DNA of 64,000 nt from Hoplostethus atlanticus (lineage: Eukaryota; Chordata; Actinopteri; Trachichthyiformes; Trachichthyidae): NCBI GenBank assembly GCA_034670405.1, contig JAXDDX010000169.1:844371-908370 (forward strand), in the 5' to 3' direction. The translations under genes were made by a program, and so were the position numbers. This document shows, one piece after another, positions 6,591-34,378 of the stretch. The notes under the pieces were generated by a model. It was not told the DNA's origin. It did no database searches and saw nothing but the letters and a program-made list of their open reading frames with translations. Every line of letters begins with the position of its first letter. Within the stretch, counting starts at the first letter, position 1.

Positions 6591-8951
6591 TTATAGAGCA
6601 GCCAGTATGTCCTCATGTTGTTGGAGTGAAATCTTGTAGATGACCTTGCGGCCCTTCCTTCTTGAATCAATATTGCTACACAAGTACCTAACAGTCTCAC
6701 TGTATACCATTGCTACCTTTTTGGTGTTTAGTTTGTAAGTGTTGTCCAGGGAATTGTCAATGTCAAAGAAATTACCTTTGAAGATGCAACTATTAGCCAT
6801 GAAGGCATTACCATAGTCATCTTCAGTGTTGTCTTGTAGGCGTAGAGGTCCGTCGCTGGTGACCTTTAGCAGGTAGTAGTCAAACCTGGGGTCCTCAGCT
6901 GCTATCACGACCACACTATCCTTCTGTACCAACTCTGCTAAGCTAAGCTCACTGTCCTGCCCTTCATCACTACGGGTGACACGCTCCGAGGGCTGAGCTA
7001 CCTGTAGCATCTGATGAGGCTGCCACTCCTCCACATAGGCCATGTTCTGACACCCCGCATACCTGCCATACATACATGGCTCACAGTAGCAGGACCTTTT
7101 GCGAAGTAGAAGCATGCCACTGGCTGAAGACGCTATAGAGTGCAGCTTTCTGTTTTCTGGGACAGGCTGGAATGCCCTTCCCCTCCTCACAATTTTACCT
7201 GCAGCAATAAAAAGAAAGACCCGACGCCTGACCTCACTGCTGGCCCTTGCAGGCAAGGTAAAATTGTGCAAGAGGTAAAGGTACATTTCCTTTGGAGTGG
7301 TGATCTGTGCTTCTCCTCGGATCACTGCCATGGCACATTTTTGTTTGACATTAGCACCTGCCGCATCCTGCTCACCTTTGGCATGAGATGTCTCATAGTA
7401 ATTCCGGACTATGTGATAGCCAAAGTTCGAGAATGACAATGAGACATCTCCCATGCAGTGACAACTTTTGTATTGTGCACTACAGCCGTCAGTGAACTCG
7501 TGCATCACTTCTGGCTTACATCCTATTGACTGGAGGTATTGGTCAACTTTAACCCGTATTTTGTGGACAGCATAGCTGTCATGTTGACTGTCCTCGAGGA
7601 TGGTGAAGATGTGCTCTTTGATGATCACTGGCTTCTCAGGTGTGCTGTCGTCACCATCATACTCCTTAATGGCATGCCGATAGAGCACAGTGACATGAAG
7701 CGATGCCTCAGACTTGCTGAAGTAGAGTGACTGAATTTCATTTTGATGGCAACACTGGTAGTTCTCACTGTAGTCATGTAGTGCTAGGACATGACCAAAT
7801 GGCAACAGTTCTCGGGTGGCATCAAACTGTGCTTTCTGCCAGGTTGCCATAAAGTTGTGATATGCATAATCCTTGGCAATGGCACGCAGGTAGGAGAAGA
7901 GATGGCCAGGTGCTGTCTCTTTGGTAAAGAGTGTCAACTTTTTTATCTTGGTGCCATCCTCCTAGCCAATCTCCACATACTCATACCGCTGCCATTTAAC
8001 TGTGGGGGCGTCGTCCGAGAGGTCATCTTCACTCCCACCAAACTCCACTTTGTCAACACCACAGTGCTCACAAAGCCGCAGGAGACAAAGTAGATTGTGG
8101 TATTCACCATTCTTGGGGCATAAGGTAGTATCCATGAAGGTAGACACACTAGTGGGGGAAGATCAGGGTGATGCTGCCTTCTAAACTTGGCACACGATTG
8201 AAGCATCATACGAAGCTCCACGTTTTCTACACAAACATGTCACTCGATCCTGTCGCCTTGCTGATATGACAAAGAAAGGCTTACACTTTAAAAAAGTGGA
8301 CTCTGTCATATCAATATTAGGGTGATCCCTCTTGAAATCAAGGTAAATTTCTCGCTGAGTTTTCTCCAAAACATATTTTGCATGTGATTAATAATTTTTG
8401 TAGCCAATCCTTCTGCGTTTGATGTCACTTTTGTCCCCAGTTGGCCGACTTTTTGACTTCCAGTACTCATAGGCGACTTTTCTCACTTCTGATGAGTATG
8501 CATCCTTCCTGGTCTTTCTGGCAGGAGTCTGCCACACCTTAGAGTTGTCTGTCAGTTTGCGGGCTACTGTGGACCTTTTCAGCTTGAGACGGCTGCAGAC
8601 CTTGCGGGCTGACCTGTCCGTCTTTTCACCGCAGACTAACTTCACCCCTGTTGAATATGCTGACCTCTGACCCTCTGTGTATGATCCTTTGCTGCTTTTG
8701 ATTGATGCAAGTCCTTTGGTTATGTTCTCAACAATGGAAGCATTGGCCTTGTTTTTCTCCACTTCCTCAGGTGTGTACATCAAACCACATTTCACTAAAT
8801 AGTCTCTGGTGGTAGGACTCTGGGCCAGAGTGGCTATGACCGCTCCCTTCTTGAGCTTTCTAGGTGTTGTAGGGATGACCTTCTCAACTGACTGTATCAC
8901 CCTGTGTTTAGACATTCTGTGTTTGAAGGCATTACGAAGGGGAGCGGCCAT
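6591..8951 (-). pseudogene. Decayed DDE-type transposase, unclassified family
   Basis: One protein of about 780 residues reads on the minus strand from ATG 8949-8951 to the stop at 6591. It is broken by an in-frame TAA at 8388, a frame change near 8180-8170 and an in-frame TAG at about 7962. The N-terminal part is basic with a helix-turn-helix-like stretch. A Cys-containing piece (LCEHCGVDKVEFGG) follows. The C-terminal 448 codons are intact and carry HDYSENYQCCHQNEIQS, then TDGCSAQYKSCHCMGD, then SHAKGEQDAAGANVKQ, an order that suggests an acidic catalytic triad in an RNase H-like fold. A Cys cluster (SCYCEPCMYGRYAGCQN) lies near the end. I recognise the style from uncharacterised fish and cnidarian proteins but cannot name the superfamily. 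I found no flanking inverted repeats by eye. Confidence 0.6.
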
Positions 8952-25671: not shown

Positions 25672-25807
25672 TAAGTTACACTAATGCACAGAAACCGAGT
25701 TCAGATGTTAGAAGAAAGAAATGCTGAATCCATACACTTACAGGCAGGGACGGCAAGCCAGCGGCGACGACCGTCAATCCTAAGAGAAGCAACACCTGGC
25801 CTTCCAT
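23111..25807 (-). CDS. fgl1: Fibrinogen-like protein 1 (hepassocin)
   Basis: Seven exons in frame: 25807-25742, 25155-24981, 24663-24504, 24419-24322, 24084-23996, 23627-23440 and 23312-23111, giving 325 residues, near the usual FGL1 length. Exon 1 is a signal peptide ([17 protein letters not shown]). Exon 2 is a short coiled coil. The fibrinogen C-terminal domain runs from about residue 81 (DCSEIF) through [15 protein letters not shown], the calcium-site region [15 protein letters not shown] and [20 protein letters not shown] to a short extra tail. FGL1 is a liver-secreted factor, a hepatocyte mitogen and in mammals a LAG-3 ligand. The short N-terminal region and the WYTWxGWWYSLK ending favour FGL1 over angiopoietin-like or FGL2 relatives. 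Exon 3 is squeezed between two CA tracts. Confidence 0.9.
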
Positions 25808-25879
25808 CCTTTCCCTGCTTAGGTACCACAGGCATAAAAGGCTAGTAAACTCTTAGAAGTCAAAAGAGAGGGGGACTTA

Positions 25880-25887
25880 CTTATAAG
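25880..25887 (-). promoter_or_regulatory. TATA-like box upstream of fgl1
   Basis: CTTATAAG lies about 75 bases upstream of the fgl1 ATG on the coding strand, a spacing that leaves room for a short leader. A poly-C run (25913-25932) lies further upstream. Position-based inference. Confidence 0.4.
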
Positions 25888-27199
25888 ACTTTAGCTGAAT
25901 CTGTTTGAATCTGCCCCCCCCCCCCCCCCCCCGTGTCAGAGCCAAACCACACTTTGGCCAAGGAGAGAGAGAATACCCGATTCTCTACAGTCATAAAAAT
26001 AAATGATGTGTGGGGAGCTGCGTCAGAACAGACACACACACATACCAAAGCCAGTAGGATTTACTGGAAAACGTCTATTCTGTTTTGGATTAGAATAGAA
26101 TAGACTAGAGTAGAATAGAATACAACTTCATTGGGCATGTAACAGTGGTGTTGGTGCCTTGCTATGCCCAGTCCTATGGCATCCTGCAGATGCCACGGAT
26201 TAGAAATATCATATCATCATAGAACTGGAAAGGGAAGGGGAAGAGAAGGAAAGGACTAATGATAGCTAAGTTAAAATAAACATTATATTGACAGTATACA
26301 TCTAGTAGAATATACACATCCCATAAATTATTATGTGTAAGAATGTGCATAGTGTATGTGTGGTGCTTATACACTAAGAAATCAATGCAGATTATCTAAC
26401 AACAATGGCATTTTGTCTCACAACCTGGTTCACATGAGCAGCACTAAACGTTAACTGATGTTCATGTTTCCACCTGGAGTCGGTTTCAACATCAAGCTAC
26501 CAGGTGGTGGCGCCAGGTCCATACACAATTCATTCCACACCAGATCATTTTGTTATCTTGACTTTATTCCTTACATTTCTTTAATGCAATTCTCTGTGAA
26601 ATTAATTCATGTAACATTTAGGACACTTGAATTAAATAAATGATTTATCATAAAACATCTGACCATTCATATGAAATACGAGTCAGTATTCAGATTGTCA
26701 GGGAGCCGAAGCTGAAGTTAACCAAGACCACCCACTGCTTGATAGCACGACTCTCCATTGACATGGGGGGACACGTCTTATATCAACTGAACAAAGCAAT
26801 AGATTTAGTTGAAAATCACCTGGCAGCACTCTCTGTTATATAAGCAATCATAACATATACACATTTCTGTAATGTATGTTGAAAAATGTGTCATTGCATT
26901 GTCCGACATATTTCAGAATCGGAACCACGGTCAGTGGTTTCATTATATCACGTGATCTGTAATGTAATGAGGTGATAAACTTCGGCTTCCTGTAGCACAA
27001 ATTTCAGCCAAGCAATCTGATTGGTCAAAGATTCGACAGTACACCACCCTCGAGGGTATTATTGCTATTATGAAACACTGCATAACATTTAGTTGTATTG
27101 AAAGCACTTTTCCATGGCAACAGTCATCAAGGAGGATGTTGTGAACCACTGTAGGTTCCCCTTCTTCCTGGTTATTGCACTTATCTTCCACCCTACACA

Positions 27200-27232
<33 letters not shown>

Positions 27233-27536
27233 TCAGTTTCAATGCCCTGCTCAGGGGAACTACAACAAGAATGGCCATAGTAAATGCAGGGAACTGGACC
27301 ATAGCCTGCAGGCTGTAACTCAAACACATGGGAGGTGTAAGGCAAGTTGATATTGTTGCAGTTCTCTCTGGTCGCCGATAGAGGGCGATGGAGGTCATAG
27401 ATTACAGTTCGAGAGTATTTCTCAAAATGTGTTTCTGTACCTCAGTCTTACATACAGTGCAGGTCACATACAAACCATCAACCAACTTAGATGTGAATGC
27501 ATATGAATGTCAAGTCCAGACTTAAGAGCTGGGAAT
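25888..27536. other. Intergenic fgl1 to mini-calmegin
   Basis: No exon recognised. It holds a C-run, a TAGAA-type degenerate microsatellite (26085-26130) leading into a LINE-tail-like AACTTCATTGGG, and a (CA)n tract at 27204-27230. The minus ORF 26943-27398 has no domain and contains a CA-derived repeat. Confidence 0.5.
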
Positions 27537-27542
27537 TTTATT
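27537..27542 (-). terminator. Polyadenylation signal of the mini-calmegin gene
   Basis: AATAAA on the minus strand about 70 bases past the TAA at 27612, supporting exon 4 as the terminal exon. Confidence 0.55.
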
Positions 27543-27611
27543 TAACTTTTACTAATTTCGATTAATTTTACTTTACTCTTTTGCACATTACAAACATTTC
27601 ACTTTTCCAAA

Positions 27612-27909
27612 TTACATCCTGATTCTCACCTTCAGGTCCACATCAGTCTTCTTCTGACTGCCCTGAGTGTCTCTCCTCCTGGGCACAGCTCTGTCATCTC
27701 TCCCTAGAATAGAATAGAATAGAATAGAATAGAATACTAACAATATAAGTAACAATAGCAATAAAACTAGTACTACTATAACAAATAATAATAATAATAA
27801 TGTTACCATTTTCTTCAAGTGTTTCTGTCTGCCGTGAGAACTCAGGGTGGTCTGGTTGAACATCATCAGACTTCTTATAATAGTACTGTTGATCTGGAGG
27901 TCCAAACCG

Positions 27910-27953
<44 letters not shown>

Positions 27954-28637
27954 TCAGAGTTCTTATAGTTGTGCTGCTGGCCTGGATCACCAAACCACAC
28001 ACACACACAGACACACACACCTACAGTACCATGTCAGGCCACATAAGGCTGATGAAGAGGATGATGGGAAGTCCAACAGTGAAGATATAGACGCCCCAGA
28101 GCCAGGGACGCTGGTGGGTGGCCAGTAGGAGGCTCTCTATGAAGCCAAGCTAGGATAAGCATACACAGAGATATACTGTATACACACGTCTAATAATATC
28201 TCTACAAATAGGCACAGAGACATACATAGATGCAGAGTTTTCTGACCCTCCCTAAAATAACAGGTACAAGTGCTTTTTTTACTTGTTTGTGCCACTGCTG
28301 CTCCAAATGTCTGGACATTGTTATGTATATTGTCACAAAAAGGCAAAGTTGGAGGTACAGGTTTCTGTCGCACTTACTGAGAGCAACAGTAGAGTAAGCT
28401 TCACCTATAGGGGATCGCCCACATTATAAGCAGCCAATAGGAAGGAGGTTAAGGGTCAGGGCCATAGGGTGCTGATGATATTCCTGTGACCCTGAAAACA
28501 TTACTGCTGGAAAAAGCAGTAGAAGAAGAGCTGACTGAAGAGAAAACTGAACAAGTAACAGGATTTACCTGTGCTTCAGCGGACACCGGTGTCACACCAC
28601 CTAGTACCGCGCACAGCAACACACAGACAAACTCCAT
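27612..28637 (-). CDS. Mini calnexin/calmegin-like ER membrane protein, 127 aa
   Basis: Four exons join in frame: 28637-28569, 28149-28030, 27909-27807 and 27703-27612. Exon 1 is a signal peptide (MEFVCVLLCAVLGGVTPVSA). Its ATG follows a TTTCAG acceptor, so the upstream ATG at 28652 is probably intronic. Exon 2 carries THQRPWLWGVYIFTVGLPII and continues to LMWP, a single membrane span (about residues 39-60) strongly like the calnexin/calmegin membrane segment. Exon 3 gives YYYKKSDDVQPDHPEF, matching the YKKTD-x-QPD start of the calnexin cytosolic tail. Exon 4 is basic (VPRRRDTQGSQKKTD) and reads through a possible GTGAGA donor to a stop. The whole luminal lectin and P domain, normally over 400 residues, is absent, and the 420 bp first intron cannot hide it. 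Its role is unknown; ER residence is inferred. Confidence 0.65.
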
Positions 28638-30170
28638 CTCTGAAATATACACTTAATAAACATGCAAGTAAACATGCACACAGACAGACACATAGTTAAC
28701 ATATGCACACACACACACACACACACACACAACACAATCAGACACAATAATAACAGCAAAGGTTACAGGTCTAATACTGTATATCCACAGGAATAGAGAA
28801 ATGTCTTTGCATGTTGTAGCTTGGAAAGATCAGCTGCATCACATGGCAGAAAGTCAGTCATGCTAGACCTACTGTATGACTTCAATGAACAGAGAGAAAA
28901 AGAGGAGAGAGAGAGAAAGACAGGGGGAAAGAAAAAGAGAAAAAAAGTGAGAGGAAGAGAAAGTGGAGAAATAGATCAGGATAAAGAAACGAGCATGTCT
29001 ACCTTCCTGACACAGCGATATCTTCAGTCTCAGTTTCTTAACAAATCACTTCCTGAAGGCACGTTGGACTTTGGTCCCAAGTCACTAGTTGACATGGCTC
29101 CAGTGCAGGCAGTGTCCCACATTACAAAGGGGTCTGACAGGGTTATCATGAGGTTATCACAAGGAATGTGAAGCGTTAGGGTTGACACCATATTTATTAT
29201 TAACGATAAACATAATAATAATAATAATAATAGATTCAAATTATTTTCATTTAACAGTATAGCCTAGATGTCAAGTGAATTTTTTTTTAAAACAATCCAC
29301 AAAACAGAAACAAGTTCAGTGCTTTACTTCTAAAAGGTTTTCAGGGGTTTTTTTTCAGGTCAGTTTTAAAAGAGTTCACCCTGCTGAAGAAAAAAATAAT
29401 AGCAACGGTCCATGAGACCGTTTTTTTTTCAATGGTTTCATCACGATTCGTTGTAGTTTCTAAAGCATATAACCAACACAGAGGTCTCAGTCTAAACAGA
29501 CAAAAATAGGAAATGTCCACGTTATTCTCTAATATTAGAATGGCTATGTGGTGAAATTAAAATCTGTATCAACAATAAACTAAGACCTACTAGTGGCAGT
29601 AAATTTACTGAATTAAAACCTATGCAGTGTGTACTGTGTGCATGGTTTAGGGAGACCAAGTTAATAATCTGAGTGACCAAGACTTTTTCGCATAGATGGT
29701 GTATTGGTTAAGACCCCTAACTCTAACTAAGTATTGTCTCAATAAATACCAACGGAAGTAGACTGCCCATTCTTCTTTTTAAAAGTGTAATATTTGAAGA
29801 GGGTAGAAAGCAAAAAAAAGCTACATAAAACGTATGAAATATTTTTTTAAATAGACAAAATGGCAAATGGGTGATGCCAACAGCAAAAATGTAAGCCACG
29901 CGTATTTCTTTTACATCAGACTGAAAGCTCTTCACTTTTACACCTGCTTAAACAATTATACACACCGGGGAAAAAAACTCTGTTAAAGTCTCTCAATTAA
30001 AGTCAAGGAGAGGAATGTACAAGGTTTGTTTTTTTCATTTTGTGAATGAATGAAAAGTGAAAACTGCAGTATTTTTAATAAAATTATCTACAGTAGCTTG
30101 TAAAGTATTTTGCAGTTTTGGGCAATGATGACAATGCTGTGTGTCATTTCCTTAGCAAGAGTACACCCAA
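28638..30170. other. Intergenic mini-calmegin to cnga2
   Basis: Contains (CA)n at 28707-28732, a purine-rich block (28880-28985) that produces a charged plus-strand ORF of no apparent family, a short ATA run (29208-29231) and AT-rich sequence. The left part probably includes the promoter of the mini-calmegin gene and the right part the cnga2 3' UTR. No further gene seen. Confidence 0.5.

Positions 30171-34378
<4,208 letters not shown>

Follow-up and report, generated by a model that had tools for sequence, protein, structure and literature searches.

A stretch of 64,000 nucleotides of the Hoplostethus atlanticus genome (hereafter the window) carries, on its minus strand at 28639-27612, a series of short exons for a signal peptide, a membrane helix of calnexin type and a short tail. 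The exons are homologous to those of calnexin (canx) and calmegin (clgn) and have introns at the same places and in the same phases, and the luminal exons are absent. The locus is thus a real and unusual member of the calnexin family, with a putative function. We favor, with a probability of about one half, the reading that it is a third, old member of the calnexin/calmegin family which lacks the luminal domain and is a working mini-protein.

Structure of the gene

The signal-peptide exon (28569..28639, minus strand, as are all exons below) encodes MEFVCVLLCAVLGGVTPVSAEAQ. Its ATG is at 28637, the acceptor ttcag sits 2 bases 5' of it, the exon start is probably 28639, and the exon ends in phase 0 at the donor CAG/GTAAAT. 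Intron 1 (28150..28568) takes the position that luminal exons have in canx and clgn. The membrane exon (28030..28149) follows, with 40 residues, LGFIESLLLATHQRPWLWGVYIFTVGLPIILFISLMWPDM, that include RPWLWGVYIFTVGLP, and phase 0 at both ends. Tail exon 1 (27807..27909) encodes RFGPPDQQYYYKKSDDVQPDHPEFSRQTETLEEN, including YYYKKSDDVQPD, and runs from phase 0 to phase 1; tail exon 2 (27630..27703) encodes (G)GRDDRAVPRRRDTQGSQKKTDVDLK and begins in phase 1, and its phase-0 end is the donor AAG/GTGAGA. In the original prediction, tail exon 2 was extended through this donor to give a fourth exon at 27703-27612, the last codons of which (VRIRM and a stop, 27612..27629) closed a frame of 127 codons. 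That frame does close, the spliced exons amounting to 127 codons plus the stop, and the AATAAA announced about 70 bases 3' of this stop is found at 27542-27537.

The splice sites had been described as good, which is true of only part of them. Donors were scored with a position-weight table, the reference set being the 4294 minus-strand GTs of the window. The best donor of the gene, AAG/GTGAGA, is matched by only 13 of these 4294 and lies inside exon 4 of the first model. The donors of the membrane exon (ATG/GTACTG) and of tail exon 1 are weak, with 1391 and 431 of the 4294 GTs, respectively, scoring at or above them. The membrane exon of clgn has a donor of similar type (AAG/GTACTT; 370 of 4294 at or above). 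At tail exons 2 and 1, the acceptors consist of a five-base TTCTA repeat (27705-27736) and a TG repeat (27912-27951), respectively, and changes of repeat length at these microsatellites could alter the splicing of the tail exons. Intron 1 also contains a dispersed repeat (approximately 28365-28529), which accounts for 37 of 43 matches between this region and other parts of the genome, at 70 to 88% identity (counts are lower bounds).

The C terminus VRIRM of the first model is doubtful. Because a very good phase-0 donor precedes these five residues, at a place that matches canx and clgn, they are probably intron read-through, unless this strong donor is unused. The true last exon should then fall between 27.6 and 25.9 kb. 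We searched this interval for acceptors, filtering on pyrimidine content, C or T before the AG and no AG just upstream; 15 acceptors passed, none of which opens an exon resembling the ends of the paralogues. The candidate with the best tract (26224) would give FYDDMIFLIRGICRMP, unlike those ends, and was rejected; the filter removed an acceptor at 27193 with a TG tract, use of which would add GGR followed by a stop. The tail exons are short and of mixed composition, and the last exon may be absent from the model; neither a long acidic tail nor a basic C-terminal end was found in the gene as modelled.

Relationship to calnexin and calmegin

The similarity to the membrane span and tail start of calnexin and calmegin, noted in the original prediction, was borne out by database searches. 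When the whole protein was compared by phmmer with 177,635 distinct PDB sequences (E<=10), calnexin (8rjc) was the single match, at E 2.8e-9, residues 21-103 of the short protein aligning with calnexin residues 465-544. The membrane exon alone matched only calnexin (E 5.2e-5), and tail exon 1 alone had no significant match in the PDB (only IFIT5, E 1.3). Compared with tail exon 1 of canx, the latter exon had a score that 1 of 1865 control segments and 3 of 5000 shuffles equalled or exceeded, and compared with that of clgn, 5 of 1865 and 12 of 5000 did so; the control segments were runs of 34 stop-free codons following an AG on both strands of the window, the exon's own place being excluded. 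The sequence of tail exon 2 has no recognisable similarity to tail exon 2 of the paralogues. No Pfam or NCBIfam family was found for the short protein.

Searching the genome (632.8 Mb in 1161 contigs) with the short protein yielded nine matches, four of them the exons of the window itself. Among the other five, only those on contigs C51 (2.1e-7) and C53 (5.3e-4) are convincing, and those on C61, C2 and C39 look like chance. The two convincing matches belong to full-length genes, calnexin on C53 and calmegin on C51; we presume these names from hallmarks of the two proteins and from the adjoining MamL-1 loci, taken to be maml1 and maml3. The canx gene (approximately C53:1032.8-1043.9 kb) has the tail EYKKTDEPQPD and the end SPRNRRVRKD, and the clgn gene (approximately C51:2343.1-2349.4 kb) has the tail YVYKKVELPRAD and the end RKRRVRKD.

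Intron places and phases match across the three genes (0, 0, 0, 1 and probably 0). The start codon lies 0 to 3 bases after an acceptor in each of them, and the signal-peptide exon has a phase-0 end: in clgn the acceptor directly precedes the ATG and the phase-0 donor is CAG/GT, and in canx the acceptor is 3 bases before the ATG, again with phase 0. The membrane exon starts at the same residue (LGF in the short gene, PGV in clgn, PGL in canx) and is flanked by phase-0 introns on either side. A phase-1 intron follows tail exon 1 in all three genes, and a phase-0 intron follows tail exon 2 of canx (GAG/GTGAGG) and clgn (GAG/GTTGGT).

The label 'calmegin' given to the gene in the original prediction does not hold clearly, the gene being about equally distant from canx and clgn. 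It is identical to clgn at 23 of 51 codons and to canx at 23 of 52, compared with 28 of 51 between canx and clgn, and so is farther from either than they are from each other. Its marks are mixed as well. The RPWLW-VY--TV-LP helix is common to all three; GLP and WP in the membrane exon, with a donor of GTACT type, link it to clgn, and the YKK-D-QPD tail start to canx. Both paralogues differ from it in having luminal exons and an acidic tail, and also cysteines beside the helix (two in canx, FCC; one in clgn, FCW), where the short gene has SLMWPDM and no cysteine; nor were their C-terminal ends found in it. Since its identity to the two is similar, the short gene looks like an old third paralogue rather than a recent copy of either. 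Calreticulins (C132, C58 and C34) belong to the same superfamily as calnexin (PF00262); they keep the luminal domain and have no membrane helix, the reverse of the short gene.

By eye, the signal peptide has a hydrophobic core and a VSA/E cleavage site, but its n-region (ME) is without a basic residue, and its resemblance to the signal peptides of canx and clgn falls short of significance (the score is reached by 154 and 224 of 2000 shuffles, respectively). This would be expected if the exons belonged to different transcripts, for instance if the signal-peptide exon were open by accident and calnexin ancestry were confined to the membrane and tail exons. However, the exon lies close by, on the expected side, with the layout found in the paralogues (acceptor 0 to 3 bases before the ATG, phase-0 donor), and we consider this explanation improbable.

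Similar patterns were also sought outside this genome. In GTDB genomes there were 37 pattern matches, of which one was retained, in a Prevotella MAG; it is a chance THQRPWLW in what we take to be a lipoprotein signal peptidase, and was discarded. Among viral contigs four patterns were matched, with no relative of the short protein among them.

Absence of the luminal domain

The central claim of the original prediction, a signal-peptide exon followed directly by a calnexin-type membrane exon, withstood the analysis: between the two there is neither an assembly gap nor a luminal exon, and no luminal remnant is found in the window. We compared 15 luminal and N-terminal exon queries with the window, taking the reversed window and the clgn locus as controls. 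At E<=1, the window gave 28 matches, the best at 0.031 and of low complexity, and the reversed window gave 24, the best at 0.003; all 15 queries matched the clgn locus at <1e-3. As the reversed window gives comparable matches, there are no luminal remnants above chance. Searching 25801-31000 alone produced short, weak matches, such as KKTDVDLK in tail exon 2 against a luminal stretch of clgn (6 of 8 identical, E 0.48), a resemblance that we take for chance.

The short gene might instead be part of a full-length one, its luminal exons lying elsewhere on the chromosome or having been dropped by the assembly. It is true that the window and its contig (C169) end together, 35 kb upstream of the short gene. 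However, cnga2 sits between the short gene and the contig end, and the window contains no N, which argues against a gap, an explanation that the original prediction had left to be checked. Likewise, the possibility that luminal calmegin exons lie elsewhere was not borne out: PF00262 has at least 24 matches in the genome, six on C51, six on C53 and four each on C132, C58 and C34 (the calreticulin-type loci), with none in the short protein, none on C169 and no orphan set of luminal exons in the genome (counts are lower bounds). We therefore regard a full-length gene as very improbable. Removal of the luminal block keeps the reading frame, because phase-0 introns bound it at both ends.

Constraint or decay

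The most serious alternative is that the locus is a decaying relic, namely a third calnexin paralogue from which the middle exons were deleted and on which selection has gone, the frame having stayed open either fortuitously or because the deletion is a recent event. Several features speak for it: a divergence that exceeds that between canx and clgn, the loss of the acidic tail and of the cysteines beside the helix, weak donors together with microsatellite acceptors, a dispersed repeat and a dead exon copy in introns 1 and 2, respectively, and the failure to find a convincing last exon. On the other hand, every coding exon is open with its phases kept, and the half-decayed luminal exons expected from gradual decay are missing.

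The dead exon copy offers a crude clock. It is a decayed partial copy of tail exon 1 (27953..27996, minus strand), identical to it at 34 of 44 bases, with a score (38) reached by none of 2000 shuffles and by none of 1047 other stretches, each 120 bases long, on the minus strand of the window. No AG acceptor precedes it and TG tracts flank it on both sides; it was probably made by exchange at microsatellites. We simulated neutral evolution, letting the gene and the copy drift freely and equally since the duplication, and asked how often the frame stays intact up to the strong donor. The chance was 0.004 when indels were a tenth of substitutions and 0.13 without indels, and it fell to 0.0008 and 0.026, respectively, when 12 splice bases were also counted. 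With only a quarter of the change placed on the branch of the gene, it was 0.065 with indels and 0.34 without. Under neutral drift from the exon duplication onward, the frame would thus be unlikely to survive intact, particularly when indels are allowed, and an open frame despite a dead exon copy favors past constraint, the clock consisting of 44 bases beside microsatellites.

Over 51 to 52 codons, pN/pS is 0.47 (0.34-0.67) between the short gene and clgn, 0.59 (0.40-0.85) between the short gene and canx, and 0.45 between canx and clgn; these values are no proof of constraint on the short form, because they average over the time before the domain was lost. Weighing all this, we hold decay to be quite possible, at somewhat below an even chance. 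As a relic, the locus would still record a third calnexin paralogue in this fish.

Possible mode of action

If the gene is a working mini-protein, the exons for the lectin and P domains would have been lost together, as a block bounded by phase-0 introns, leaving the signal-peptide exon to splice directly to the membrane exon. The gene is presumably transcribed and its signal peptide cleaved after VSA; the product would span the ER membrane once in type I orientation, with roughly 18 residues on the luminal side, one helix of calnexin type and some 60 residues of tail. Having no luminal domain, such a protein would bind neither glycans nor ERp57, and the helix would do the work.

One report describes recognition of clients by calnexin's own membrane segment independently of its lectin function, misfolded membrane segments included (PMC11513070). 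Most likely, then, the short protein's helix would bind to membrane proteins, nascent or misfolded, through their membrane segments. Another option is that the short protein occupies calnexin's membrane partners, and so tunes calnexin or calmegin. Calnexin binds TRAP through its transmembrane domain, palmitoylation being crucial, according to a study in which calnexin was assigned only provisionally in the map (PMC11186639). As the short protein has no cysteine beside the helix for palmitoylation, binding of client helices appears likelier than docking at the translocon. We can only guess at the outcome of such lectin-free binding: it might assist the folding of membrane segments, or it might dampen calnexin. 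An intramembrane chaperone or calnexin regulator that is lectin-free and has been kept by selection since the luminal loss, perhaps across many fish, is put forward tentatively, and we would sooner doubt it than rely on it.

A small ER membrane protein that serves membrane-protein production has a known parallel, in function only, in Frey1/C11orf94 (1700029I15Rik). Unlike the short protein, Frey1 is of type II, and its gene is on human chromosome 11, with Pex16 upstream in the mouse (PMC9974436). It is not known to be related in sequence to the short protein, and we rejected it as a mammalian counterpart. In the open-access literature, among the matches listed and as far as titles and the starts of abstracts go, no such luminal-less calnexin gene is described; one paper mentions duplicate salmon calnexins, not a short form (PMC5824609). 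If real, the gene would amount to a natural experiment on what the calnexin helix does independently of the lectin domain, only the helix and the start of the tail being retained, and a clean case of a chaperone gene becoming a microprotein through the loss of one in-phase exon block.

Genomic neighborhood and origin

The neighbors of the short gene in the window, all on the minus strand, are an fgl1-like gene (fibrinogen C domain), cnga2 and probably plastin-3. The second of these scored 254.9 bits against 242.5 for alpha-3, and plastin-3 came only narrowly ahead of LCP1 (100 against 97.6 bits). The window further holds a piece of an acyl-CoA synthetase, with no Pfam match and only distant adenylating enzymes in the PDB (best 3.1e-7). 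Its type appears to be ACSL1/5/6, and a gene adjoining the window resembles SNX25. From cnga2, the plastin and the synthetase we had first taken the neighborhood for a block resembling the human X, on which the short gene would be a third ohnologue from the early vertebrate duplications. We rejected such a block, as ACSL1/5/6-type genes and SNX25 are not X genes; by synteny, the short gene may stem from the vertebrate duplications or have arisen by another route.

The genes canx and clgn are a known ohnologue pair, and the placement of three marker families fits this: one MamL-1 locus is 8 kb from canx and another 26 kb from clgn (presumably maml1 and maml3), and GRAM and PA matches lie approximately 0.9 Mb from canx on the same contig. 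None of these markers (MamL-1, 5 genome matches; PA, 9; GRAM, 20) was found on C169, of which 908 kb are assembled. Beside the three stronger MamL-1 loci there is a fragment at C131:782873-783022 that, by eye, is maml1-like and not mamld1, and a fifth, weak match is on C551. There may also be mobile elements in the neighborhood: a 456-codon open stretch at 6594-7961 (minus strand), with no Pfam match, looks by eye like a mobile-element protein, and the sequence adjoining the window (C169:814371-844370) contains reverse-transcriptase-like pieces together with sorting-nexin-like exons, which we take to be SNX25-like.
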